Shown here in pieces: positions 481 through 61,654 of a stretch of DNA of 64,000 bases; the first letter of the stretch is position 1, and every line of letters starts with the position of its first letter. The notes beneath the pieces were generated by a model. It did no database searches. It had not been told where the DNA came from and saw nothing but the letters and a program-made list of their open reading frames with translations. The DNA lies in NCBI GenBank assembly GCA_029204225.1, contig CM055101.1:45134180-45198179 (forward strand), written 5' to 3'. This DNA is from Diphasiastrum complanatum (lineage: Eukaryota; Streptophyta; Lycopodiopsida; Lycopodiales; Lycopodiaceae). A program made the translations under genes and the position numbers.

Positions 481-1207
481 AGTATAACTGAAATTTGAGC
501 CTGGAGTATAACTGAAATTTGAGCTCAGAGCTGAATCCTGATAATAGTTATTAGTGACTAGTGACCATTGACTAGTCTAACACAGTGATATGGATAATGG
601 CAGCTACTAGCTAGGTAGAGTCTAGCCCGTACTACGTAGGTACTAGGACCCTAGATTGTAATTTTGTTTCGAAGTTGAAAGTTGAATTTTAAACTTATTT
701 GCAAATTGCAATGTCGAGATCGGAGAAAAGAATAAACAAGAAGATTATGACAATGTTTGAGAAAGCCAAAACAATTGAGGTTAGAAACTTAGATTTATTT
801 GACATCTGTCATCATCATTCATCATTCAACATTGAACATTCTATATGTAACTGCTAACTACTAACATAATACATTAAATACAATCAAAATTGTAAAACTT
901 TAAAGTTTAAACCTTTAACCATTAGTAATTACTGAATCCTGATATTACTAATTAGATAATCGACTAACAAACTATAGTTAACTTCAGGAATCAAAAACTT
1001 CAAACTAGAATCCATAATATATCATGATTCATAACATAATAGTAAATACATATGCCAGGTGCCTCATGAGTCCGGTCACCAATGTAATGCCACATGCGAC
1101 ATGATGATAAATCATGATGTGTACACTGTAAACAGCTCAAGAGTCAATGCTCATCTAGTGACATCTACAAACTACAATGATCTAATGTACAATGAGCAGT
1201 GAGCACT
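481..1207. other. Non-coding AT-rich stretch, hAT 3' flank
   Basis: There is no gene or RNA signal here. The position directly after the hAT stop codon (minus-strand view) suggests 3' flank of that transposon or gene. I could not identify a terminal inverted repeat. Confidence 0.4.
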
Positions 1208-1374
1208 CTAAGCTCTCCTATGCCTGAGTCTCCTCCCACTCGCTAGTGGTGTGGAGCTTGCTGTGGCCTCTCGAGTGGCAGGCTGAGCTACGAAATCCTC
1301 ATCGGAGGCAAAGGTATGATGCCCCTCATCCTTGTTGGAATATCAATCCACACTCTAGAGAGAACTATCAAACA

Positions 1375-1447
1375 GGGCGGATAGCTCAGTGGTAGAGCAT
1401 CCTATCCGGTATGAGGGAGGTCCTGGGTTCGAATCCTAGTCTGTCCA
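1375..1447 (+). tRNA. tRNA-like sequence in the left LTR of the TRIM
   Basis: It folds as a cloverleaf. The 7-bp acceptor stem pairs GGGCGGA with TCTGTCC (two G-U), the 4-bp D stem pairs GCTC with GAGC, and the 5-bp T stem pairs CTGGG with CCTAG around TTCGAAT. The A box TAGCTCAGTGG and B box GGTTCGAATCC match the plant Pol III consensus exactly. The anticodon arm is weak: it has a C-A mismatch, no U33, and a nominal CGG in the loop. Read it as a tRNA-derived promoter or structure, probably not a decoding tRNA. Gene finders may call it a tRNA or pseudo-tRNA. Confidence 0.75.
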
Positions 1448-1634
1448 TCCATATTATAATTTATGGATTTCTAACATGGTGACAGAGCCAAGTTAGACCT
1501 AACAGTTCATGGTGTCAAAGCCATGGTTAGGTGGCCCAAGTTGTGGGGCAGGTGACAGCTAGGACCCCAACCAAGTGTGGCTTGAGGGGGGTTGTTGGAA
1601 TATCAATCCACACTCTAGAGAGAACTATCAAACA

Positions 1635-1707
1635 GGGCGGATAGCTCAGTGGTAGAGCATCCCATCCGGTATGAGGGAGGTCCTGGGTTCGAATCCTAGT
1701 CTGTCCA
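1635..1707 (+). tRNA. tRNA-like sequence in the right LTR of the TRIM
   Basis: Second copy of the same cloverleaf. It differs from the first by one T-to-C change in the anticodon arm, which restores a G-C pair there. The A and B boxes are unchanged. The anticodon loop still lacks U33. Confidence 0.75.
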
Positions 1708-1742
1708 TCCATATTATAATTTATGGATTCCTAACAATCCTC

Positions 1743-1905
1743 TGTTAGAAATAATAAATGATAATGTAGTTTCCCATAGGTTACTTTGACCCAAAAGGTC
1801 GAGACTTGTGTAACCATGGGTTAGGTTTATTATTTAGACCATGTTAAGTTAGTTTTAGCTAAGTTGGACCCAATTTGGGTTTAGTGGTAACTCGTGAGTC
1901 CAAGT
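1743..1905 (+). repeat. Left LTR remnant of Z1
   Basis: The first 163 bp of the Z LTR (starts TGTTAGAAATAATAAATG) align with 8803-8965, 54786 onward and 57347 onward. It is cut exactly at the start of the copia LTR at 1906; CAAGT next to that point is the likely copia target site. Confidence 0.9.
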
Positions 1906-2307
1906 TGTTAGAATTAATGGTTAATTGTAGAGGCCAGCCTGCGTGCTAGAAGGCCTATTTTTATTTTTAGTATAGGTACTATCTATTTTTAGTACAGGTA
2001 CCTAAGTTAGTACCAATTTTGCTAGAATAGTATAGAAATCTATTTTAACCAAGTTAGCATAGATTTCTATTGTTAAGACTTCATAATTAGCATTTCGATT
2101 GCTATTGTAGTAGAATAGCTTTTGCTTTTCATTGTGGACAGCCTCTATAAGAGTAGATGGGCGCCCACCTCCATTGTTATCTCAGTTTCCAGCTTATGAA
2201 GCATAGCTTCTTGCAGTCTCTCTTCTTCTTCAGCTTGTGGTTGATGTTTTGTGTGAGTACTAATAAGATTAGTCTACTCCGATTAGAGAATCTCTTCGAT
2301 TCTAACA
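1906..2307 (+). repeat. 5' LTR of the copia element
   Basis: 402-bp LTR with TG...CA ends. The initiator tRNA-Met-type primer site follows immediately at 2308. The matching 3' LTR is absent from the window. Confidence 0.88.
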
Positions 2308-2339
2308 TGGTGTCAGAGCCATCTCGTTAAGATCGGGAT

Positions 2340-2770
2340 CTACGGAAGGAGAAGATCAGCGCTGCAAGTTTTACTGGTGGAGGTCGCATCTAGTGGAGGT
2401 GCTATTTGGTGAAGGTTGTATCCGGTGGAGGCGTCATCCTGTGCAGGTTTTTCTGGTGGAGGACACATCTGGCGCAGGTTAGCTTCTGGACAGGCAGCAT
2501 CTGAGGGCGGCACATCTGGTGCATGTCACATAGCTACAGGTTACAGCACGTGCAGGCAGCATCTGAGGGCGGTAGCAGCTGGGGACAGTTAATATCTGAG
2601 GCAACGACGACCAGACAGATGAAGACAGGTAGCACTTGAGGCAGCAAAGACCAGGACAGGTCTGATTCAGGGCAGGTGCTAACCGGACAGTTCTAATCTG
2701 AGGCAGTAGAGACCAGACCAGGTCTGATTCAGGGCAAGTGCTAACTGGACAGGCAGTGAGCAGATTTCTA
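2340..2770 (+). repeat. Imperfect tandem repeats in the copia leader
   Basis: Between primer site and gag, a GGTGGAGG-type unit recurs at about 2370-2470. A unit of about 60 bp containing CAGGTCTGATTCAGGGCA occurs twice (about 2640-2695 and 2700-2755). A third short pair, GCAGGCAGCATCTGAGGGCG, lies at about 2490-2570. There is no open coding frame on the + strand. Confidence 0.6.
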
Positions 2771-2938
2771 CAAGCAAGAAGAACTGAGGAAGGCAGAATC
2801 TGGGACAAGCAGAGACCAAATAGGCAAGATTTGGACAAGTGATATCTAGTGAAGGCAATAATTGGACAGGTAGTTGTCCTCAAAAATTGTTGCATGCAAT
2901 TATATTCTTAGTGGAAAGCCCATCATTTTTGTACAAAG

Positions 2939-5900
2939 ATGGGGAGTCTGAATGAATCCGTTCTTCCGGAGTCAAGCAAGTTAGATGGATCTAACTACAG
3001 CTTGTGGAAGTTCAAACTTCAGAATATCCTTCAGGACAAAGATTATTGGGAAATTGTCATGGGACAAGAGGTGATGGCTCACGGTCTCAATGATCAAGAT
3101 AGAAGGGCATTTGAGAAACGTGCGCATCATATCATCAACTTATCTATGAAGGATAAGGTGATTCCGCTGATCAGGAATGCAATTGGGCCTAAGGATGCAT
3201 GGGATATCCTTGAGAACACATATGAAACGGTAAGTAAGTCTCGAGCGTTGTTCTTGAACAATAAGCTTCATACCTTGAAATTGGGATCAGAAGAATCCAT
3301 TACGGATTTTATTACCAGGGTGAAGGATCTAAGAGATCAATTGTCTTCTATAGGGGAAATTGTACTTGATAATACTCTAGTACAAATTGTTTTGAATAGC
3401 TTACCATTACAATATCAGAACTTTGTTATGACACTAAGTTTGAGGGAGAGATCGCCGACATTTGATGAGCTCAATGGTTTGCTACTTCAAGAGGAATTAC
3501 GAAGACAAAACCTGATGTCTACAGAAGATTTCAAGGAACTGGGATTCTTTTCCAAGAATCAAGGTAAGAAGGGCAAGAAGAAAGGAGGCAAAAAGGATCA
3601 GAAGCAGGAAGGGAAGGACAATACGGAAAAAGGAGACAGTTCCAAATCTAATCCAAAGAGAAATGGCAATTGTAATTTTTGTGGCAAGTATGGTCATTTT
3701 GCGTTTGAGTGCAGGAAAAAGAAGGCTATCCAGGTCAAGAAGAAGTAGTCAGGCAACTTCATTGAAGACGAAGACAAAAGTGAAGCTGTGGCATGCTATC
3801 AGTTATTCTCAGCTTCAACATCAGAGATCTTTGAAGATTGTTGGTATATTGATTCTGGAGCAACGCAACATATGACACCACATCGTGAGTGGTTCACACA
3901 GTTTGATGACACTGGTGTAAATTCACATGTCAAACTTGGAGACAATTCTTCTTACGATATCGAAGGTACAGGTACAGTGAGAGTACATTTACCTTCAGGG
4001 AATATAGGAGAAATTAAGAATGTTCTCTATGTTCTAGGCTTAAAAAAGAATTTACTTTCAGTTTCTGCCATAGCTAAACAGAATATGAAAGTTGAGTTTG
4101 ACGATCAGAAGTGTCTCATCAAAGACAAAAACAAAGGTTACAAAGTTGTGGTCAAAGGATTATTGGAAGGTCGACTTTACAAACTTGATGCAACTACATT
4201 GGATCATCAGGTTTGTGCAGCTTCTGATAGTATGGAGAGCAGGATATGGCATGAAAGGTTTGGACATCTGAACTATAAAAGCTTACAGGTTCTAAAAGAC
4301 AATAATATGGTAATAGGATTACCTAATATTGTATCTTCAGGAAAAATTTGTGAAGGATGTGTTATGAACAAGCATCATCGTATGCAGTTTCCCGAGGATG
4401 GAGCATATAGAGCCAAGGAAATCTTGGAGCTTGTTCATACAGACTTATGCGGTCCCATGCAGACTGAGTCTATAGGGGGAGCATCCTACTTCATGATATT
4501 TGTGGATGATTTTTCCAGGAAGGTATGGATATACTTGCTTAAGTATAAGAGTCAAGCTTTTAAGTTCTTTACTCAGTTCAAATAACTTGTTGAGAAGCAG
4601 ACAGGAAAGCAAATCAAGATTCTACGTTCAGATAAGGGAGGTGAATTTATATCTACAGAGTTCTAGGAATTCTGCAAAGAACATGGAATCAAGAGACAAT
4701 TTGCTTCAACTGATACACCACAGCATAATGGAGTAGCCGAGAGAAAGAACAGGTCTGTTGTGGAGAGTGCTCGAAGCATGCTACGAGGTAAGAACCTCAA
4801 GAATCATTTGTGGGGCGAAGCAGTTAGTACAACAGTTTACTAGCTTAACAGAAGTCCTACAAAAGCTGTTCTAAATCGAACTCCAGAAGAAGCTTTCACA
4901 AGTATAAAACCTAAAGTGGATCATCTACGAGTTTTTGGTTGTATAGCATATGCTCATATTCCTAAAGATAATCGTCAAAAACTTGATTCAAAGGCAATCA
5001 AGTGTTTATTCCTTGGTTATGATGAGGAAGAGAAGGCATATCGCCTTTATAATCTTACCAGTAAGAAGGTGATTATGAGCAGGGATGTTGTGTTTGAAGA
5101 AAGTGAGTCTTCTACCCTAGAAGATCATGAGGAGGATACAAAAACTCCTATTATAGATGATGTTCAGAAAGATACAGGTCCATGTGATACAGCTTCTACA
5201 CAAGTTATACCAAGGGTGTGTACACAGGTGGATCTTGGTAAACGGAAAGAAAGGTCAAGGGTATTTGATACATATTCTCCTTCTACGTCACCTACAAAGA
5301 AGTCACCAAGATGGTATTTTGAGACTATAAAAGATAGTCAAATGTTGGATGAGGGAGAATCGAGTCAACAAGGAGCTAAGAGATTGACACGGTCAAGTGG
5401 ACACTATCATGAAGATGGTGAAGAAACGCATTATGCGTTTATGGCTTCAGTGTTGGATTCCGAGGATCCTTTATTTTATGAAGATGCTGCAAAAGAACAA
5501 GTTTGGAAAACTGCTATGGATGAGGAGTTCAGTTCTATCATGAAAAACGAGACATGGGATCTTGTTGAACTTCCAGCAGGTAAGAAACCAATTGGTTGCA
5601 AGTGGATTTATAGAACCAAGTTTAAGTTTGATGGTTCTATAGATAAGTATAAGGCCAGATTAGTAGCCAAAGGATATGCTCAGAGGGAAGGGATTGACTA
5701 TGAAGATACTTTCGCACCGGTTGCTAAAATGAATACTTTGACGAGTGTTTTAGCAATTGCGTCTCATTTTGGATGGGATATTCAACAAATGGATGTCAAG
5801 AGTGCTTTCTTGAACGGTTACCTTGAAGAAGAGGTTTATCTGGAGCAACCTCAGGGTTATGAGGTTGAAGGCAAAGAGCACTTGGTTTGCAAGTTAAAGA

Positions 5901-6893
5901 AAGCATTATATGGGTTGAAACAAGCACCTAGAGCATGGTATACACGTATCAACAATTATTTTTTGAAGCAGAATTTTCATAGAAGCATGTCAGAGTCAAC
6001 GCTTTATATTATGAAAGATTTGGATGACATAGTCATTATTGTTCTTTATGTAGATGATCTTATTATCACAGGGTCTAATAAGTCACTAATAGAGAAGATA
6101 AAGAACAATCTTTCACAGGAGTTTGATATGAAAGATTTAGAGAGACTTCAATATTGTTTGGGTATTGAAGTTTGGAGATCAAAGGAAAGTCTTTTCATAT
6201 CACAAGCAAAGTATGCAAGAGAGTTACTCAAGAAGTTTAACATGCTTGATTGTAAGTCCATTTCTACACCATATGATCCAAGTGTAAAGCTTACAAAAGA
6301 GGAAAATTCTGAAAGTGTGAATGAAACACTTTATAGGCAGCTTGTAGGTAGTCTTATCTATCTAACGACTACTCGACCAGACATTTCATATGCAGTGAGC
6401 ATGGTGAGACAGTTCATGTCTTTACCAAAAGTTTGTCATTGGAAAGCGACAAAAAGGATTTTGCGTTATGTCAAAGGGACACTCAGGTATGGCATTTATT
6501 ATGGTAAAGGAACAAAAAATAAAACTTGAGGGTTTTGTTGATGCTGACTGGGCAGGAAATGCAGAAGATAGAAGATCGACTACATGATATGCATTTAATC
6601 TTGGAACAGGAACTATATCTTGGAGTAGTAAAAAGCAACCAACAATTGCTTTATCTTCTACAGAGGCAGAGTACAAGGCTACTACATCAGCAACTTGTGA
6701 AGCAATTTGGTTACGAAGGATTCTAAAAGATCTTCATATAGAACAAGTTGAACCTACAATTCTATGGTGTGACAATCAGAGTTGTATTCAGCTTGCAAAG
6801 AATCCAGTATTTCATAGTAGGTCAAAGCATATTGAAGTTCAGCAGCATTTTATATGAGAAAAGTTACAAAGTGGTGAAGTAGAGGATCTACTG
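2939..6893 (+). pseudogene. Copia gag-pol, decayed
   Basis: One reading frame from ATG 2939 to about 6526 broken only by stops: TAG 3746, TAA 4583, TAG 4664 and TAG 4841. A one-base shift at about 6526 follows, with TGA codons in RNase H. Domain order: gag of the UBN2 type (LDGSNYSLWKFK) with zinc knuckle CNFCGKYGHFAFEC at about 3672; protease (WYIDSGATQHM, 3842); GAG-pre-integrase with HHCC (WHERFGHLN, CEGC); integrase core (VHTDLCGP, SDKGGEF, HNGVAERKN); reverse transcriptase (MDVKSAFLNG, YGLKQAPRAW, YVDDLIITGS); RNase H (DADWAGN, CDNQSC, SKHIEV). Integrase before RT identifies Ty1/copia. Several stops can arise from CAG or CAA by C-to-T change, typical of methylated TEs. Confidence 0.92.
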
Positions 6894-8802
6894 TAACATC
6901 TTCGGGGCTGCTTTTAGGTTGCCCACATCCATGTAGGTTTATCCTACTTCCGTTCGTCCGCTGATCCCCTATTTTTCATATTTGCTCCTTTGCATGAGGC
7001 GCGCATCTACAAGCAATTTTTATCTTCTGATTTGGCTGAAAAATCAGCACCCTTGCTGATTTTACAAAGTGAAGATCCACTTGTTTTTGCTTGTTTCCAG
7101 GTGTGGAAGAAGGCGCTAATTTTTTGTGATGATCCGATGACATTCCGAGGCTGAAAATTGGACAACATATTACCATTTGTAGGGTGTTTGCAACGGCCCT
7201 ATCCGTGTGTGTATTGTTCACACTTTTTGGCAAGAAAGAGGGGTTCCGGAAAAAACTTTGTTGGAGGCTAACCTAATTCTTTGCTTGCTGGTTTTTTGAG
7301 TTTGTAATGCAATTTTAGGCAAAAATTTTCAGCACACCAGGCTTGTAGGAGGGCGAGTTCCTACATCTATCTAATGTGTGGTTTCGACACATTCTGGTGT
7401 TGATTTTTCAGATTTGATACTTGCTGGTTTTTGTGTCTTTTAGGGCACATTTAGGGTTCGAAAAAGTTTATCTTCTTGGCTGGTTCTTATGGCAAGAGAT
7501 TTGGGAGCAATTCATACTTGTTCGGGCGAAGATATGTTGGATGGCACCAACTATTCTCCATGGAGTTGCAAGCTGAGGTTTGGCATCGACGTGATGATCA
7601 ACCTCTTTCATTATTTATTGGTAACAAGATCTATCTTATATCATTTGAGATTTTGCAAGACCCCTAAAAGTGCTTGGGAAACACTTTTAAAGATGTACCG
7701 AATAAAGGATTCATCATCACGCTTTCTCCTCTCACTTTATCCTCTTTGAAGGTAGAAGAGCAAAGGCATGCAAAGTTTGATCATTGTCTTTCTACAAGTA
7801 CAAGTTTGCATCAAAATGTTGGTATGGTAAAGCATTCTTCTTCTCTTGAGCCATTTGTTGCAAATGATGGATGCATTAGTGAAGAACTTTATGAGCAAGC
7901 TTCTCAAGTTAATGTTTTGGAAAAGGCTGAAATCAAGCATTCTTTGAAGCCATTTTGTACTAATGGAGAAGGGGAAAAAATCATGTCAATTAGTACATTG
8001 GTTTAAAGTGGCGTGTTGCTGGATTTGCTCAAAGTGGCAAGCTGCTGGTTTTTTTCTTGAAGATGGTGGACAGCAGATTCAGCCATGGTTTATTGATCAT
8101 TTTCAACCTATGTTACATCGTGAGCATCCTATTATGCATCGAGAACAGCCTGTGGAAGGTTTTTGGACAGCAAGGTCCACATTTGGAACACTTTGGACAC
8201 CAAAGTGTTGGTGATTTTGTGGCTGTTGGACAGCCTGCTACAGCCTCTTGTTGGCTGTCCGAGTCTTTGCGGGATAGCAAAGCATCTTTTTTACCTTGGA
8301 GGAAACACACATGCCTCACCAAAATCAGTACCTTATGCTGATATTCCTGTTTTGATGCTTACTTATGATGACGGTGTTACCTTACCTAGTGTTGGTGAGC
8401 AGATCATTGATAGTAAGATTTGGGAGGATGTGATGGTAAAAGAGTATTATTCTCTTCTTTATGTTTCTTGTGGTAAGAAGACTTATGGAATCATGTGGGA
8501 ACCATTGATGGATTGCAAATCCATATTTCGGCTTGTGGCTGGTTTTTTGGTTACCTACTTTGGATGGAGCATGCTTGTCTTCACTCTTCGACTTGATGGT
8601 ACCGCACTTCGTATTCTACATCTCTTCTACATCGGGCATGATTGGGGCTGAGATTTCGGCTACTTCGACTACTTCGAGTTGGATGTTTTTTTTTTTTGGC
8701 TACATGAAGTTTTGGGCAGCAAGCAACATTTTGCATTTTGTTGCAATTTTTCCATTCTACTTCATGTCATGTTATGTTTTTTACATTATCATTTAAGGAG
8801 GG
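6894..8802 (+). pseudogene. Internal region of Z1: gag-like and unknown reading frames
   Basis: An ATG at 7489 opens a frame with a gag-type N-terminus (MLDGTNYSPWSCKLR), then the CKTPKSAWETLLKMYRIKD segment seen in copia gag, broken by frameshifts. Further on, 8301-8520 keeps an unrecognised frame (VPYADIPVLMLTYDDG, IIDSKIWEDVMVKEY) that is also conserved in the second copy at about 56820-57050. No pol domains are present. Confidence 0.6.
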
Positions 8803-9253
8803 TGTTAAAAATAATAAACGATAATGTTAGTTTCCCGTAGGTTACTTTGACCCAAAAGGTCGAGACTTGTGTAACCATGGGTTAGGTTTATTATTTAGAC
8901 CATTTTAAGTTAGTTTTAGCTAAGTTGGACCCAATTTTGGTCTAGGGGTAACTCGTGGGTCCAAGTAAAGTCTAATTATGTTAAGGGACCCTATCTTGAC
9001 TTTTGGGAGTGCCTTGTAATTAGTAGTGGATTTGGAAGGTTCTAGAACTTAGAGTTTGGAAGAGTCTAGGACCTTGGAAGGCCTATTTATATGTACTCAT
9101 TGTTCATTTGTAATTCATTCCCTTTCAAGCATCGCTACTACTTTCTCTCTCCTTAAGGGCGCCTAACCCTCTCCCTCTTCTTCTTCTTCTTCTTCTTGTT
9201 CTTGTATATGGATATTGAATGTTAGAAGGATCTTGGCACTTTGATTTCCTACA
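8803..9253 (+). repeat. Right LTR of Z1
   Basis: 451-bp LTR, TGTTA to CCTACA, preceded by the purine tract and followed by the TCCTC duplication. A (TTC)n run lies near its 3' end at about 9177-9200. Confidence 0.92.
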
Positions 9254-12477: not shown

Positions 12478-13990
12478 TCATCGGTCCTCGATGACAAACT
12501 CTGGGTAAGACTTCTTCAACGCTTGTCGCGTCTCCCAGGTAGCATCTGACAACGGATGTCCTTTGCAGGTTACTAGATACTCTTGAAGGAGACGATTCCG
12601 CAATCGTTGCTCCCTTCGATCTAGGATTCTTTCTGGCCCATAACCTGTGGTGTCTTTCTCCTCAAGAGACACTAGACCTTCCACTAGGCTATCGCCATTG
12701 TGCAAACATTTCTTCAGTTTGCTAACATGGTCCCACAGGTGGCTGTAGCTTGTAAGCTACTTGGCTCATTTTCTTAACAATCAAGCATGGTCCACAATAC
12801 CTAGGAGATAACTTGGCGCACTTTCCAGTGCGTAGCACCTTCGACTTCGAAGGGACTAGTAAATACACCCAATCTCCATTCTCGAATTCCCGATAGGTAC
12901 GGTTCTCACGAGCATAACTCTTTGCCCTAGCTACAGCTTTGGACAAGTTATCTCGTGCCAACTCTAGCTTCTGCTGCATCTGAGCCAAAAACTCTACAGC
13001 ACTAGGTACTCTATGCAGAATCCCTATTTTGCATACTACTCACATATGCCCTAAGCATATCTTCCAAGATCTAATTCACTCGCTCTATCTGACCATCCGT
13101 CTGAGGATGCTCAGAGCTACTCATCCGCAACTGTGTTCCCAGCTTGGCAAACACCTCAATCCAGAAATTTCCCGTAAACTTGGGATCCCTGTTAGAAACT
13201 ATGGACTTCGGAAGACCATGTAACCTAACAATATTTTGAATAAACAACTCAGCCACTTGCGGAGCTGTGACCTTCTTGGTCGTTGCGATGAAATGAGCCA
13301 TCTTGGAAAACCTGTCTACCACTACCATAACGGAATTGAATCCATTTTGGGTCTTGGGTAGCCCAACAATAAAATCCATAGAGATGCTTTCGCACCTTCG
13401 TGTAGGTATCTCAAGTGGATGTAGTAAGCCTGGAGGACTTACTCTCTCGGCCTTGTTCACTTGACAAGCCGTGCAACGCTGGACGTACTCTCTTACATCC
13501 CGCTGCAATCGTGGCCAGAAATAATGCCTTCTCAAAAGCTCACTGGTCTTATCAATACCAGGGTGCCCTGCGCAGGGACTATCATGACATTCATGAAGTA
13601 TCTTACGACGAAGATCCTTCACGTCTGGCACGAAAACTCTTCCATTTCTCAATAACATACCATCTTTCACGGTGTATGTTAGATATGTACTGGTGTGTGC
13701 CTCTACGGAAGCGACAGCCTCGACTGACTCTTCCGTTTGGTCGACTACCTTGCGCGCATTAGGCCACACACGCTGACAATGCGGGTCCTTTTCTTGAGCC
13801 TTCTTAATATCCTCCATGAGGCCACTGTCAACCACAGTAAAGCTCATCTAATGCAATATACGAGATAGTGCATCAGCGACCACATTTTCCTTCCCTCGTC
13901 GGAAGCGAATTTCCAAGTGAAATTCCTGCATCAGCTCGGCCCACCAAGCTTGGCGGCCTTTCAAATCTGGCTGAGTGCAAAAATACTTTA
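12478..13990 (-). pseudogene. Chromovirus pol 3' part: RNase H end, integrase, chromodomain
   Basis: Read on the - strand: the RNase H tail at about 13990-13852 (WWAELMQEFHLEIR, ENVVADALSRIL) ends in a stop. Integrase follows from ATG 13847, with the HHCC finger (HPGIDKTSELLRRHYFWP, CTACQVNKAE) and the DDE core (MDFIVGLPK, SNRDPKFTG, HPQTDGQIERVN). The frame breaks at about 13070. The integrase C-terminus lies at 12988-12722 (ENGDWVYLLV, LSPRYCGP). A chromodomain-like end lies at 12705-12478 (ILDRREQRLRNRL, WETRQALKK). The chromodomain marks the chromovirus clade. Integrase after RNase H is the Ty3 order. Confidence 0.88.
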
Positions 13991-14165
13991 AAGTATGATG
14001 ATCTGTGTACACATTCAACATTCACATAACACAACCACAAATACTGAATCTCCATTCTCTTTATTTGCATATAGGTAACAAGAGGACCCTCAACAGATGG
14101 TCTCTCCCCCTTTAAGACATGAGACATACCCTCATGCCCGAACTTATATACATGTGACTTAAAAT

Positions 14166-15700
14166 CTATGCATGCCACCGCTTACCAAGTACAATATCAA
14201 ACTTAGCTAGTTTAGTAATTTTAAAATCTAACTTCTCGGTATACGTCTGAATAGACAATGACGCCCGAGAGATTCTTTCATCCCAAACCTCTGTTCCCTT
14301 ACCATCTGGCATCTCAACAGTATACCGGTAAGTAGATGGAACAGTAGCCAAGTGAAACTTCCTCACCACACGAGAATTGATAATATTATGTGAGGAACCG
14401 GTGTCAAAAAAGACGAGCACGTCATGACCTTCCAGCTTTCCCCTCATGCGTATCAGTTCACTATCTGGAAACTGATAAGCTTCCCGCGCCTTGGTGGACA
14501 AGTAACAAACTGGTGCCTTTGGAACAAGCTTCCGCACCGAAATAGTCATGACACGACGAGTGTCCTCATCATCACTTACCAACAAGTCATCCAAAATTTC
14601 CTCATCCTTGCCCTCATCTTGACGTTGCATAGTATGGAGCTTCTTGCCCGTACGTCGAGGACAATCTTTGAAAAGATGCTTGCCAAGACAGAAAAAGCAT
14701 AATCCATCTTTCTTGGCCTTTTCCTTTTGCTCAGGACTGAGGGGAGACTTGTCGTAAGCACGACGAGCCATAGGAGATCCCGCCTTGCGCTTCAAAGTTT
14801 GCTGCATTTGGATAGGATCCTTCTGTGAAAAGCCTTTCTGACCAGCTTGGCCAGACTTTCGCGAACCCTTCTTCTGAGGCCAGCTTGGCGCTCCAGATTC
14901 AGCCTTGGTGCGCATATTACCTTCAAAGTTGAGAGATATAGCAACTGCCTCTTCTAAGGTCTTGCACCCTTCATTAAGCACTGAAGGCCTCAACTCTTCA
15001 CGAAGGCCAAATATGAACTTGTGGACTACTAGCCACTCGGGAATCTCTTCCGGAATCTTGATAAGCGTCTCACGATACCTATCAGCATATTCTTGCACCA
15101 TGTACTACCTCTAACGATGCAAAAGCCAAGCATCCGTCGCACGCACATGCTCATGTGGAGGAATAAACTGAGCTCTGAAAGCTCTCGCTTAAACTCAAGC
15201 CAGGTGGATGGAGCCTGATTAGACTTCAACAATTTACGCCACCACCTGTCAACAGAATCAGTAAAATGGAAAGCAGCTTTGCGGACCCGCCAACCCTCAT
15301 CAGTTGGAGACCGTTTCAAATCAAAATACTTTTCCCACTTATGCAACCACTGATCTACGATATTAGTATTGCGTTGGGGAGTGTTTCTAGCAAAACGGGT
15401 AGGTTTAACATCTTTGTCTTCTGGATAGGGTGGAGGTAAGATAGGACGAACAGCAGAAGACGGATAAGGCGGAGCATACTGCGAGGAAGACGCATAACCA
15501 CCAGCTACCATCATCGCTCGCATCTCTGCGACGATCTTTTCCACACTATCCATGCGAGCTTGCACAGAAGGGGAAGTACCAGCAGGTGAACGGGCAGCCA
15601 CTGTAGGCGGATTATGGGCAGGACTAAGCACAGGGCTGGGTGGTCGTGATGGAAGAGCAACGGGTGGATTGAGCAGAATATCAACTCTATCATCTTCCAT
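14166..15700 (-). pseudogene. Chromovirus gag and protease, frameshifted
   Basis: Gag starts at ATG 15700 (MEDDRVDILLNPP), with a proline-rich N-terminus and a capsid part (FTDSVDRWWRKLL). It shifts frame at about 15120 and continues from 15101 (EYADRYRETLIKIPEE, FIFGLREELRPSV). The zinc knuckle at about 14700-14660 is atypical: CFFCLGKHLFKDC has one residue fewer before the histidine than CX2CX4HX4C. The protease DTGS motif is at about 14410-14400 (FFDTGSSHNIINS). The frame stops near 14166, where reverse transcriptase should begin. RNase H resumes within 200 bp, so most of RT is deleted. Confidence 0.85.
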
Positions 15701-58003: not shown

Positions 58004-61000
58004 AATGTGGAAGGCTATATATTTATTCATGATATTGGAATATATCCAAAATCACAAATTTAGTTTGAGAATTCAATAACGTCATAAGGTAAAGGTTAGA
58101 AAAGATATACATGCAACCAAAAAAGTCACAGGATTTACATCAAATATAGAATCCAATAAACAAAAAACCTTGGCAACTAGCACTACTTATGCAACAACAG
58201 AAATGCAACCTTCTTCTATCACGATGCCTACAAGAATATTCACAACCTTCATAGCAAGGAAAAATAGAGCAGAACCTATTCCCAATGGCAAATGGGACAA
58301 TCAACAAAACGTGTCGTTTCTTTGATGTTTGAAACAGCCAAACCTTTTGAAAATAGAACTTCATTCTTTGCAATGCCCCAAGCACTTTCCAGCGAGTCAT
58401 GCAGGCGGCATTCAAAGAGAATTTGCAGAAATTTCTGGAAATTACATAACTATGAAGGGGCTTAAACTTGACCATAATGGCCTCTTGGTGCCAATGTTAG
58501 AAGAGGATCAATAGCGCAAATGGATGGCCCAAAATTCTATACACCATAGGAAAGCCTCAAAGCTCATCTATTGAAAAAAATGCTTCTCACCTTACTATCC
58601 CACATTCTTTGGCCCATAGCCTCTCAACTTTTGTAGTCGACCTTTAAACACAAAAATGCAGCACGTCCTGTTTGTGGGCTTTGTGACCTATATGTGCAAC
58701 TTCATTCTTACAAGACATGCCAAAACACCAATACTGCTATTTCTATTCTCCAAGACCTATGCGAGGAGGCCCATCAGAATCTATTCTCTCCAGCCCTCCA
58801 ATCATCTAGAGTGTGCCTCATGGGGTATGCTAGAAACAACTCCTCAAGAACCTGATCAATGTGAATAAGTGATTAATCTTTACACAAAACGGAAAAGAGT
58901 TTGCATTCGAATCTAAATCACCTCAACGCTACTTCTTACCTCGATGAAAGAAGGACCAACAAGAAAACATTGAATGTAAGCCCCACCATTATGATAATGC
59001 ACTTCCTTGTTGGTGTCTAAGTCCCTCAAGCCAAAAGTGGGTGGGGATAAAAATTAATATGAAAACACCCAAAAACAAAAGTGGGTGGGGAAAAAAATCA
59101 ATATGAAAACACCCAAAAACATTCTTGCATGTAGAGATTTTAGTTAACTTTTTCCCATGAACACGGAAAAACAATCAACCTCAATTGTCGGATTTTTTCC
59201 CAAAGGAACGATTTCAACCCTTACATAAGGTCCCAAACCAAGAAATGTGGATGCATAGTCCCTCCCCTTACGTACAGAGCCAATAAACAGCAGTCAAAAC
59301 TTTAAGCTTCTAAGAAAATATTTCAAGAAAAACATCAAGAAAGTACTGACCTCTGTCCTCTCTTCGGCAGTGAGCTGTGCACGGAAACAAAGTGCAAGAC
59401 CCCAATTATATAAAGCTCGGGCATCCCTTCTATCAAGTGACAAAGCAAGCCGATATTTCCTCCCTGCTTCAACCAGAAGCTTCTCACATTCCTCACATAC
59501 TTCTTGCAAGGTTCTATCCAGAACCTCAAATTCCATCTGCTCACTCCAGTCTTCCTCTGCTTCCAATTGCCTCCGATTACCAGTAATATCTCCTTCTGCT
59601 GAGAGTGGAAGCATACTGCGTAGCTGCTGGCTCAATTTAAACTTGAGCTGACCATGGACTAGTAAAGTGTTACCCCACGATCCGATCGCACTCAAACTTG
59701 AAGGATCCATAGCAGCAGCTGCAGCGAAAATATTGGCTGCTTCATAAAGCATTCTTTCAGCCACACCTACTTCAATCCTCCCTGTCAATCCTTCTTGACC
59801 CTCATCAAGGAGAGCTTCTCCTTCCTCCAGAAGGCAATTTGATTTTTCCTCCTCCGATGTATTTGACTTGGGAACAGGCAAATTTCTCTCTTTTGTCCCT
59901 GCATAGTTTTCGGTGTATGAAGGATCTATGCGCCCTTCAGTCGACTGAGAGTTAAAAGAGAAGTTGGAATTGAGGTTTGTCTCACTCTTATCAGTCTCGT
60001 ATAATGGTGAATCTTTCTCTGACTGCGGTAGTGCTTCTTTTGATTTTCTACGTTTTCTTTCAAAATTATGATTTCTCTCCACAGCCTTTTTGTAGGAGGT
60101 GTCTTCGATCGCTTGAGTTTGGGCTCTGTCCAACGATCCGAACAAGCGTTTATTTTGTTCCCCAAGAAATTCACTTTCATCCCCACTTTCAAAAGTTGGA
60201 GATCCTGTTCTGTTGGTGACCTGCCCGGGTCTAATTGAATTAGTTTTCTCCTCTCTCTTGGAAGTGAAAGTACCTGTCAATAGATCATCAGACAAGACCT
60301 TTAGATGGGTTGTTGGCACCTCCAAAATGCGGTCCTCTGCCATGCCATCTAGAGGTCCTATCAATTTGCATCCCAAGTCCCTCCTCCCACCAAGCAAAGC
60401 AGCAGTGTCGCAGCTCTTGCTTAATATAAGATTTACCCCCCCTACGCCTATCCCTTTACAAAAAATGTGATTTCCAGTCGTCCTATTGCTCGATAACCAG
60501 GAAGCTGAATTCAACCTAGATTGGAGAAAACTACAAAAACCAGCAATTAACATCTCTTCTTTGTAAACACAACTCCCTTGAATCCTGATTTCTTCCTGGG
60601 ACTGAATGGTAATGGGAAAAATATTCCCTGAATGCAGATGAACTGCCTCAGCTGCATCGGAGGGAAAGATTACCACAAACGAATGGCGCGAATTTTTTTC
60701 TGAAACAGAACTCGTGTCTGAGTTGCAAGTAGATGAATCCTTCACGATTACGATCTCTGCTGCACCAGAAGTCACCAAACCTTTGCTACCTTCGTCCTTC
60801 CTTAGAACAGACTTGAACCCCAGAGACCTCAAATATTTTTGGAAATTGCTTAAGTCGTATGCTGTAGTAGCCGTGCTCGTGTCTTCAGTATTAATGTCAT
60901 CTCTGACTGCAAAAAGTTCAAAAGTGACTTTATCCTTCCTCTGAATTGAGAATTTTTTAATACAATCTCGCAAGATTTCTGGAACACTCCTCAACCTAGA

Positions 61001-61654
61001 GAACATAATCTGAAAAACTTGGGGATCCCACTTCTGAATGAATTTGAAGATGGCTGGAGCTGCTTCTGAATGGCTGGTTGGAGCTTCGAGCCCCATCATA
61101 CGCAGCTGAAAAAAATGTCTTGCAATCAATAACGAAATGAGAACAAGTCCCAGAGCTGGAAGCGTTATTGGTCCTCCGATGCCACGTCTGGTTGCTAACA
61201 ACAAGCTTAGAGCTACTGCTAAAAAAGCTGGAGGCCCCCATACTGACGATTGCCAACCAGCGTCTGTCAGCCTTATCAGTGAACACTGCCCACTCAAATC
61301 CTTCGCAGCAGCTAATTTTACAGAGGACGGGGAGGACTGATAATCAAACAAGCTCGCAGAACCTCTGGAATTAGCTGCATCTGCTCCGGAAGAGCGTTGT
61401 AATGATGGCCGCAGCTTACACAGAAACCCTCCACTGTTGTTGTTGTTGTAATTGTGGAGTTTGTTGTTGCAGCCAAACCCATTCCACACACAAGAGTTGT
61501 AGCATAACCGGAAAGCAGCAAAAGAGTATAGAAAGTAAATAGACGAAGAAGATGGCGATAGTGTGGTGGAGATGCGTGGGCGTGGGCGTGGGCATGAGTG
61601 GGGATGTGGGCAGCAGGTTATTGCAAGAAGGTGGACGCTCTTCACAACATCCAT
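49957..61654 (-). CDS. Membrane-anchored TPR-repeat protein, probably plastid
   Basis: Three exons join in frame: 61654-59351, 53310-53220 and 50228-49957, giving 888 residues and a TAG stop. Junctions are GT-AG (donors GAG|GTCAGT and GGTG|GTTTGT; acceptors TTTTTACAG and GCATACAG). Residues 1-60 are rich in S, P and R with few acids, like a transit peptide. Two hydrophobic segments lie at about 141-155 and 162-183 (FLAVALSLLLA, LPALGLVLISLLIA). Residues 185-450 form a conserved-looking but unrecognised domain. Residues 450-640 are low-complexity and charged. The C-terminal 250 residues are TPR-like (EAANIFAAAAAMDP, RKYRLALSLDRRDARALYNW, LLNWGLAMRD, KELFQDALKFDPHYGQA). I do not recognise a named family; a scaffold role in the thylakoid or envelope membrane is inference. 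Intron 1 is 6.0 kb and holds LINE and Z2 insertions. All exons are undamaged. Confidence 0.85.
50229..53219 (-). other. Intron 2 of the TPR gene
   Basis: 3.0-kb intron. No TE coding domain or LTR pair was recognised within it. Short frames in it are not supported. Confidence 0.7.
53510..54003 (+). mobile_element. Non-LTR element 3' fragment with (CT)n tail, copy A
   Basis: Ends with GACAAGACGTTAATAAAGC (about 53902-53920), then a CT run at about 53924-54003. This is the same terminal block as 57927-57953 and 23758-23784. The left boundary is approximate. It sits in intron 1 of the TPR gene, antisense to that gene. Confidence 0.6.
53924..54003. repeat. (CT)n tract
   Basis: About 80 bp, the tail of non-LTR copy A. 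Confidence 0.9.
54004..54785 (+). pseudogene. LINE reverse transcriptase, 5' truncated and broken
   Basis: Fragments in shifting frames. AIIEEAKHRRQRVYCCSVDF then RKAFDSVPR is the first RT block. A deletion follows, then GVKQGCSLLPVLFGLYIDEL at about 54184-54245, LLYADDVIFVS at about 54298 (the YADD catalytic site), GLQRQLDCLHEFC and GVNFGKTKVMVFNTS. A C-terminal piece, LFDTIVTPTALYAAEAW, lies at about 54650-54710. The motif order is that of non-LTR retrotransposons. Two in-frame stops lie near 54107-54135. Confidence 0.85.
54786..55200 (+). repeat. Left LTR of Z2
   Basis: 415 bp ending TTTCCTACA, immediately before the primer site. It lacks about 30 bp present in the right LTR. Confidence 0.92.
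55455..57340 (+). pseudogene. Interior of Z2: gag-like and unknown frames
   Basis: A gag-type segment near 56035-56540 (MLDGTNYSPWSCKLR, SSLKVEEQRHAKFDHCL, EELYEQASQVNVLEKAEIKH) shows shifts. A second conserved frame at about 56825-57050 (SPKSVPYADFPVLMLTSYDD, GEQIIDSKIREDVMVKEY, KKTYGIMWEPLMDCKS) has no recognised domain. No pol motif anywhere. Confidence 0.6.
57347..57794 (+). repeat. Right LTR of Z2
   Basis: 448 bp, preceded by the purine tract. It contains a (TTC)n run at about 57718-57744. Confidence 0.92.
57952..57999. repeat. (CT)n tract
   Basis: About 48 bp, the tail of the LINE copy split by Z2. Confidence 0.9.
58001..59350 (-). other. 5' part of TPR intron 1
   Basis: Intron sequence directly after exon 1 (donor at 59350). 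A 50-bp or so direct repeat containing AATATGAAAACACCCAAAAA occurs at about 59030-59120. No coding or TE domain was seen. Confidence 0.6.

Follow-up and report, generated by a model that had tools for sequence, protein, structure and literature searches.

Close to the start of a 64,000-nucleotide stretch of the Diphasiastrum complanatum genome (the whole stretch is called the window below) lies a short retrotransposon of the TRIM kind with a tRNA-like sequence in each of its LTRs. The locus raises the question of whether a tRNA unit in this position belongs to a family of elements or to one insertion, and of how an element with a non-coding internal region is copied. Here, we describe the element, its relatives in the genome and the fusions that these relatives have formed with other LTR elements.

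The element in the window

The TRIM occupies window positions 1333-1736 (404 bp) and is built of two 144-bp LTRs, mismatched at two bases (LTR positions 71 and 138), and a 116-bp internal region. With a perfect ATCCT target-site duplication (TSD) on both sides and a purine tract before the 3' LTR, it is the complete element that a first-pass annotation of this DNA had described. The features are as follows.

1328..1332, no strand: left target-site duplication, ATCCT
1333..1476, + strand: 5' LTR, 144 bp
1375..1447, + strand: tRNA-like unit of the 5' LTR (ARAGORN, Rfam)
1382..1392, + strand: A box of the 5' LTR, TAGCTCAGTGG
1426..1436, + strand: B box of the 5' LTR, GGTTCGAATCC
1477..1489, + strand: primer-binding site, initiator-Met type, with two changes compared to the usual family form
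1477..1592, + strand: internal region, 116 bp, non-coding
1584..1591, + strand: polypurine tract, GAGGGGGG
1593..1736, + strand: 3' LTR, 144 bp
1635..1707, + strand: tRNA-like unit of the 3' LTR (ARAGORN, Rfam)
1642..1652, + strand: A box of the 3' LTR
1686..1696, + strand: B box of the 3' LTR
1737..1741, no strand: right target-site duplication, ATCCT

The primer site had been annotated as initiator-Met-type, which is right as to type; its sequence is not the usual one, the window copy reading TGGTGACAGAGCC compared with TGGTATCAGAGCC in the usual family form. An exact search with the 29-base primer-site form of the window gave only two matches in the genome, the window copy and a neighbouring inverted copy with 100% identity to the window TRIM across 414 bp. 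Since this second copy sits within a 6.4-kb inverted duplication, it was not counted as an independent insertion. Given a primer site with two changes, in an exact form common only to the inverted twin, the window copy is probably dead.

The inverted duplication relates window 490-6893 to G000:C10:45125699-45132070 (L051) with 98.9% identity; its arms are ~2.6 kb apart and carry the TRIM and part of an adjoining Copia element. This Copia begins at window 1743, one base past the right TSD of the TRIM, and has coding frames to 6526, gag and RT matches and a primer site located by sight near 2307. The start of its LTR is 94.5% identical to window 8803-8966, a segment with ~76% identity to the LTR of Copia-A, an element considered below. 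Elsewhere in the window, matches to integrase (H2C2, rve) and to retroviral aspartyl protease that lie in different frames (13074-15101, - strand) mark the remains of another LTR element, and a 786-aa open frame (59294-61654, - strand) has no Pfam match at an E threshold of 0.001.

Copies of the element in the genome

A genome-wide search for copies, as the first-pass annotation had proposed, was performed on 1.74 Gb in 5,176 contigs and revealed a large family. A 24-base A-box pattern gave 1,981 matches at up to two mismatches and the start of the internal region gave 777 matches at up to one mismatch, compared with zero for the reversed control of each. The 1,981 pattern matches, together with the 115 LTRs analysed below, rule out that the structure is a one-off, with a tRNA or SINE inserted in this element alone. 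From the sites fetched, chiefly on contigs C1 and C2 with the best matches of a whole-element search added, 70 LTR chains were assembled. Both ends were in register in 54 chains, and 32 of these 54 have a perfect 5-bp TSD, in a set from which L002, L009 and L010 were dropped as duplicates and which retains the inverted twin L051 and the same-flank pairs L003/L006 and L045/L046. The annotation had made its reading depend on a second copy with a duplication of its own; the perfect 5-bp TSDs of the fetched sample comprise 27 different sequences. Three solo LTRs with a TSD were found among the chains, and tandem arrays of the TRIM are present.

Among 41 LTR pairs, the number of differing bases ranges from 1 to 14 with a median of 5; the two differences of the window pair place it in a group of 11 pairs with two or fewer. 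The recent movement read from those two differences in the annotation therefore holds in a relative sense only.

The tRNA-like unit

ARAGORN called tRNA-Thr(GGT) at 1375-1447 and 1635-1707, its sole two calls in the 64-kb window, and the Rfam tRNA model scored the two units at 49.1 and 49.8 bits, compared to a threshold of 29 bits; at gathering score, Rfam detected nothing besides tRNA in the window. The A-box pattern at up to three mismatches matched twice in the window and never in 100 shuffles. These data bear out the tRNA-like unit with A and B boxes annotated in each LTR. Its predicted cloverleaf was recovered as the minimum-energy fold of both units, but with a stability no better than that of shuffles (z -0.45 and -0.55), and fold stability was dropped as evidence for the unit. 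As ARAGORN places it, the anticodon is preceded by a C and its stem contains a mismatch. Since tRNAs have U directly before the anticodon (the U33 rule), decoding by the window units is unlikely.

Across 115 full-length LTRs, ARAGORN detected a tRNA in 101 and Thr(GGT) in 86, compared with none of 115 shuffled LTRs, and a tRNA was called in 32 of the 42 LTRs that do not carry the exact sampling pattern. Copies without the tRNA part, which the annotation would have counted against itself had they been the rule, are thus in the minority. The A box is consensus in 102 of the 115 LTRs, the B box in 80 and both in 72. Non-CpG variation in the aligned LTRs, a set that includes the inverted twin of the window copy, amounts to 1.4% in the 5' part, 2.2% in the tRNA and 2.2% in the 3' part. 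Since tRNA positions are as variable as their flanks, no extra constraint on the tRNA is seen in the sample of 115 LTRs, and the selection for the promoter that the annotation had suggested finds no support in these values or in the 72/115 count of intact box pairs. Within the unit, the A box varies by 1.4%, the B box by 2.0% and the remaining tRNA by 2.4%, the A-box figure being biased because most of the sample was picked by the exact A-box pattern; box conservation was dropped as promoter evidence. A lack of T-runs was likewise dropped as Pol III evidence: TTTT is absent from the element, yet also from 518 of 2000 shuffles, which is not significant.

tRNA-less copies were sought by inspecting the LTRs beside the 27 exact-primer-site internal regions listed on C1. 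In L090 and L018, one LTR each is deleted for all or most of the unit. L088 and L089 each have an LTR that breaks off at base 46, and some further LTRs, e.g. in L037 and L092, are cut or shortened within the unit. In L082 (oriented 5475-7611) and L054, TRIM LTRs are cut at base 69-70 in the tRNA and continue into unrelated sequence, the cut LTR of L082 being part of a tandem of ~1.8 kb.

Two other readings of the unit have to be weighed. Thr(GGT) calls in 86/115 LTRs would suit a family that spreads working tRNA-Thr genes, an idea that the C before the anticodon and the anticodon-stem mismatch of the window copies render extremely improbable. It is also unlikely, if less so, that a SINE or tRNA once landed in a TRIM LTR and has been carried along as a passenger, with Pol II transcribing the element from other LTR sequence. 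A passenger would agree with the tRNA part lacking excess conservation, with both boxes being consensus in only 72/115 LTRs and with single LTRs devoid of most or all of the unit (L018, L090). However, the remaining LTRs of those two loci retain it, the tRNA call persists in 101/115 LTRs, and the tRNA-in-LTR design recurs among the TRIMs of fungi, animals and a spikemoss (PMC10886601).

TRIMs fused to other LTR elements

Some TRIM internal regions are preceded by the CA end of a foreign sequence instead of their own LTR, and some TRIM LTRs are followed by a foreign TGGTAT-type primer site instead of their own internal region. The TRIM joins unrelated LTR elements at the LTR/primer-site boundary in both arrangements. 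With the TRIM outside, the order is TRIM LTR, partner internal region, partner LTR, TRIM internal region, TRIM LTR; with the partner outside, it is partner LTR, TRIM internal region, TRIM LTR, partner internal region, partner LTR. On C1, foreign sequence precedes 4 of the 27 internal regions (L084, L088, L089 and L091); since L088 and L089 have common upstream sequence, these four represent at least three events.

From a first set of 14 candidate junctions, five were set aside: L040 and L044 (TRIM LTRs with small deletions), L081 (damaged start), L079 (neighbour not identified) and L080 (join to coding sequence). Nine remain. A perfect 5-bp TSD was found in all fusions with both outer ends seen, namely 3/3 with the TRIM outside and 2/2 with the partner outside. 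The TRIM-outside cases are L071 (GATAC), whose outer LTRs differ at 0/144 positions and whose interior encodes Copia gag, beta-barrel, integrase and RT domains in separate frames (Pfam), L110 (ATTGC) and L108 (TATCT), in which the LTR starts with TC rather than TG. The partner-outside cases are L074 (TGGAT; outer LTRs 23/520 different) and L095 (GGATT; 34/797 different), and a related copy of the L095 site has a single GGATT. The matching duplications indicate that the fusions integrated as units.

Only the partners in L071 (Copia-A) and L072 were typed as Copia by Pfam, and the neighbours in L057, L075, L078 and L088 were taken as LTRs by their CA ends alone. When four partner LTRs were compared with the TRIM LTR, matches of only 7-10 bases were obtained (E 0.36 or worse), and no similarity was detected among these four. 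In L072 and L073, the TRIM is joined to a Copia in rearranged form; these loci share 99.3% identity across 6.8 kb, which identifies them as a segmental duplication. Their fusion includes a segment of Copia leader and TRIM LTR in inverted orientation, like a folded-back strand. At L080, the TRIM joins the Copia-A integrase coding region at four common bases, ACAT.

Junctions with Copia-A

Junction searches at up to three mismatches yielded 739 native junctions of TRIM LTR to TRIM internal region (46 letters) and, using 37-38 letters, 789 native junctions of Copia-A LTR to Copia-A internal region, 40 of Copia-A LTR to TRIM internal region and 46 of TRIM LTR to Copia-A internal region. Reversed controls for all four junction types gave zero matches. 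The 739 native junctions (up to three mismatches) were not subtracted from the 777 internal matches (up to one mismatch), as the mismatch rules differ. C5 holds 16 of the 46 TRIM LTR to Copia-A junctions; two clusters, one at 37.5-38.0 Mb and one at 65.2-65.7 Mb, account for 15 of these and perhaps represent local amplification of one fusion. Among the 40 Copia-A LTR to TRIM matches, 21 deviate by two or three bases, mostly in groups with variant LTR ends. Because of these clusters and variant groups, the 40 and 46 junctions are not all separate events or the work of one partner.

Eighteen of the 40 loci were fetched, and the match to the Copia-A LTR was full or partial in 16 and distant in two. 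With L071 and L094 added, nine loci are TRIM-outside, five are Copia-outside and six are truncated, duplicate or distant; L120 was assigned from its upstream side alone. Of the nine TRIM-outside loci, five are preceded, at a distance of 2.5 to 9.4 kb, by a junction of TRIM LTR to Copia-A internal region, and for the remaining four no such junction was detected at up to three mismatches. Copia-A LTRs in the fusions diverge by 1.4-4.7%, with the arrangements intermixed, and by 7-10% in L094. In the TRIM part, mean divergence is 2.7% for TRIM-outside fusions (10 rows) compared to 3.8% for plain copies (47 rows), and no diagnostic column marks the fused copies, a pattern that either recurrent fusion or the spread of a few fusions would produce.

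A model for copying and fusion

We consider it probable that the family is a high-copy Helenus-type TRIM that is putatively transcribed by Pol III, is helped by iMet-primed elements and becomes fused to them by a minus-strand switch. Judging from the A and B boxes, we infer that Pol III would start just upstream of the tRNA-like unit of the 5' LTR and run on through the 3' LTR. The RNA would then be packaged into particles of iMet-primed LTR elements, chiefly Copia-A, and primed at TGGTATCAGAGCC, and helper integrase would insert the cDNA, making the 5-bp duplication. In a mixed particle, a minus strand at the primer site of one RNA could carry on copying at the U5 of another RNA packaged with it, the primer site common to both providing the homology, and could thereafter complete this second RNA as normal. 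One such switch accounts for the TRIM-outside as well as the partner-outside arrangement. Template switching at the common iMet primer site in mixed particles is, on the sequences at hand, the best explanation of the fusions; Copia-A is probably the main helper that copies the TRIM, and the ACAT join at L080 resembles such a switch made at a different place.

Events at the DNA level, i.e. the nesting of one element in another, recombination between the LTRs of adjacent elements or a one-LTR circle recombining at the primer site, are an improbable source of the fusions, even though complex LTR elements are attributed mostly to post-insertion recombination (Sabot and Schulman 2007, PMC1950507). 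An insertion of one element into another is expected to show a pair of TRIM LTRs together with an inner TSD, and the presence of just one inner LTR counts against it. Recombination between LTRs requires homology, and since the partner LTRs are without detectable similarity to the TRIM LTR, it is unlikely; matching outer TSDs would not be expected from it either. A one-LTR circle gives the same anatomy as the fusions but would have to recombine over ~12 bp.

Three TRIM-outside insertions have different TSDs, and it is possible, if rather doubtful, that such a fusion moves as a unit, which would make it a coding retrotransposon with a Pol III-type promoter in its outer LTRs. The candidate order is tRNA-LTR, Copia-A gag-pol, Copia LTR, TRIM internal region, tRNA-LTR.

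As we read the fusions, the genome records a TRIM and its probable helper joined during copying, and such joins allow a helper to be named from sequence alone. The same junction search is applicable to Cassandra and other TRIMs. If the model is true, 'autonomous relatives' of other TRIMs, for example in rice, could be primer-site fusions and not ancestors.

Comparison with known systems

In soybean, an exchange of LTRs between partner elements was reportedly described by Du in 2010. The complex elements of Sabot and Schulman (2007, PMC1950507) resemble our fusions in having three LTRs, two internal regions, an outer TSD and matching outer LTRs; an outer TSD with close outer LTRs was found here in L071 (0/144), L074 (23/520) and L095 (34/797). 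For dimers of close relatives, these authors proposed template switching via R. In contrast, the units fused here have unrelated LTRs and join at the primer site, and a kinship of close relatives with a common R was rejected since LTR homology was not detected for the four partner LTRs compared. A narrow literature search on TRIMs with template switching or chimeric elements gave no match. According to Gao 2016 (PMC4717578), tandem TRIMs are common, and the rice TRIM OsajRetroS10 is taken to be an internal deletion of a large Copia. The same study describes a rice Copia that has TRIM LTRs and, at the breakpoint, a 25-bp duplicate whose last bases are TGGTATCAGAGCC. Such a duplicate is what a TRIM-outside fusion would show, and the large OsajRetroS10 relatives may accordingly be look-alikes of our TRIM-outside fusions.

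As for the family itself, other classes were considered and ruled out. Retrozyme LTRs carry a hammerhead ribozyme, and the window has no hammerhead match (Rfam, gathering score). Cassandra is likewise a TRIM with a Pol III-type gene in its LTR, and its primer site, TGGTATCAGAGC (PMC7215508), was counted as a likeness; however, Cassandra carries 5S rRNA where the window family has a tRNA, and the window has no 5S rRNA match (Rfam, gathering score). tRNA-derived SINEs, described in PMC10886601 as lacking LTRs and inserting by target priming, are ruled out by the LTRs, primer site, polypurine tract and 5-bp TSD.

The family is a Helenus-type TRIM (TRIMp3), a new member of a kind named in 2024, an assignment made by feature description in which Helenus-1_SMo was compared by its dimensions. 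It follows from every Helenus feature checked being present: a length below 1000 bp with two LTRs (404 bp), tRNA-derived LTR sequence with TRGCY, YGG and GGTTC (both boxes consensus in 72/115), a primer site and polypurine tract between the LTRs (family primer-site form in 777 matches) and the 5-bp TSD of plants and fungi (32/54 chains). The annotation was correct in describing a TRIM with a tRNA-like unit in its LTRs, a design that had already been published in 2024. A full-text literature search for Helenus/TRIMp3-type elements returned nothing beyond Kojima 2024 (PMC10886601), and a narrow one that combined TRIMs, LTR tRNAs and Pol III promoters with Cassandra gave no match. In that paper, Helenus is defined as a TRIM with a tRNA-like unit in both LTRs, its Pol III promoter is putative, and Selaginella moellendorffii is the sole plant species given, so that ours is a second plant genome. 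Helenus and the window family are alike in the tRNA unit of both LTRs, the A and B boxes, the primer site and the polypurine tract, and the 5-bp TSD is that of fungal and plant Helenus. Helenus-1_SMo has a 120-bp LTR, an 85-bp internal region and a 5-bp TSD, compared with 144 and 116 bp here, and tandem arrays, seen in our family, are reported there for one zebrafish family. The link to a helper is drawn in that paper from similarity of primer sites or internal regions, whereas here it takes the form of physical fusion.
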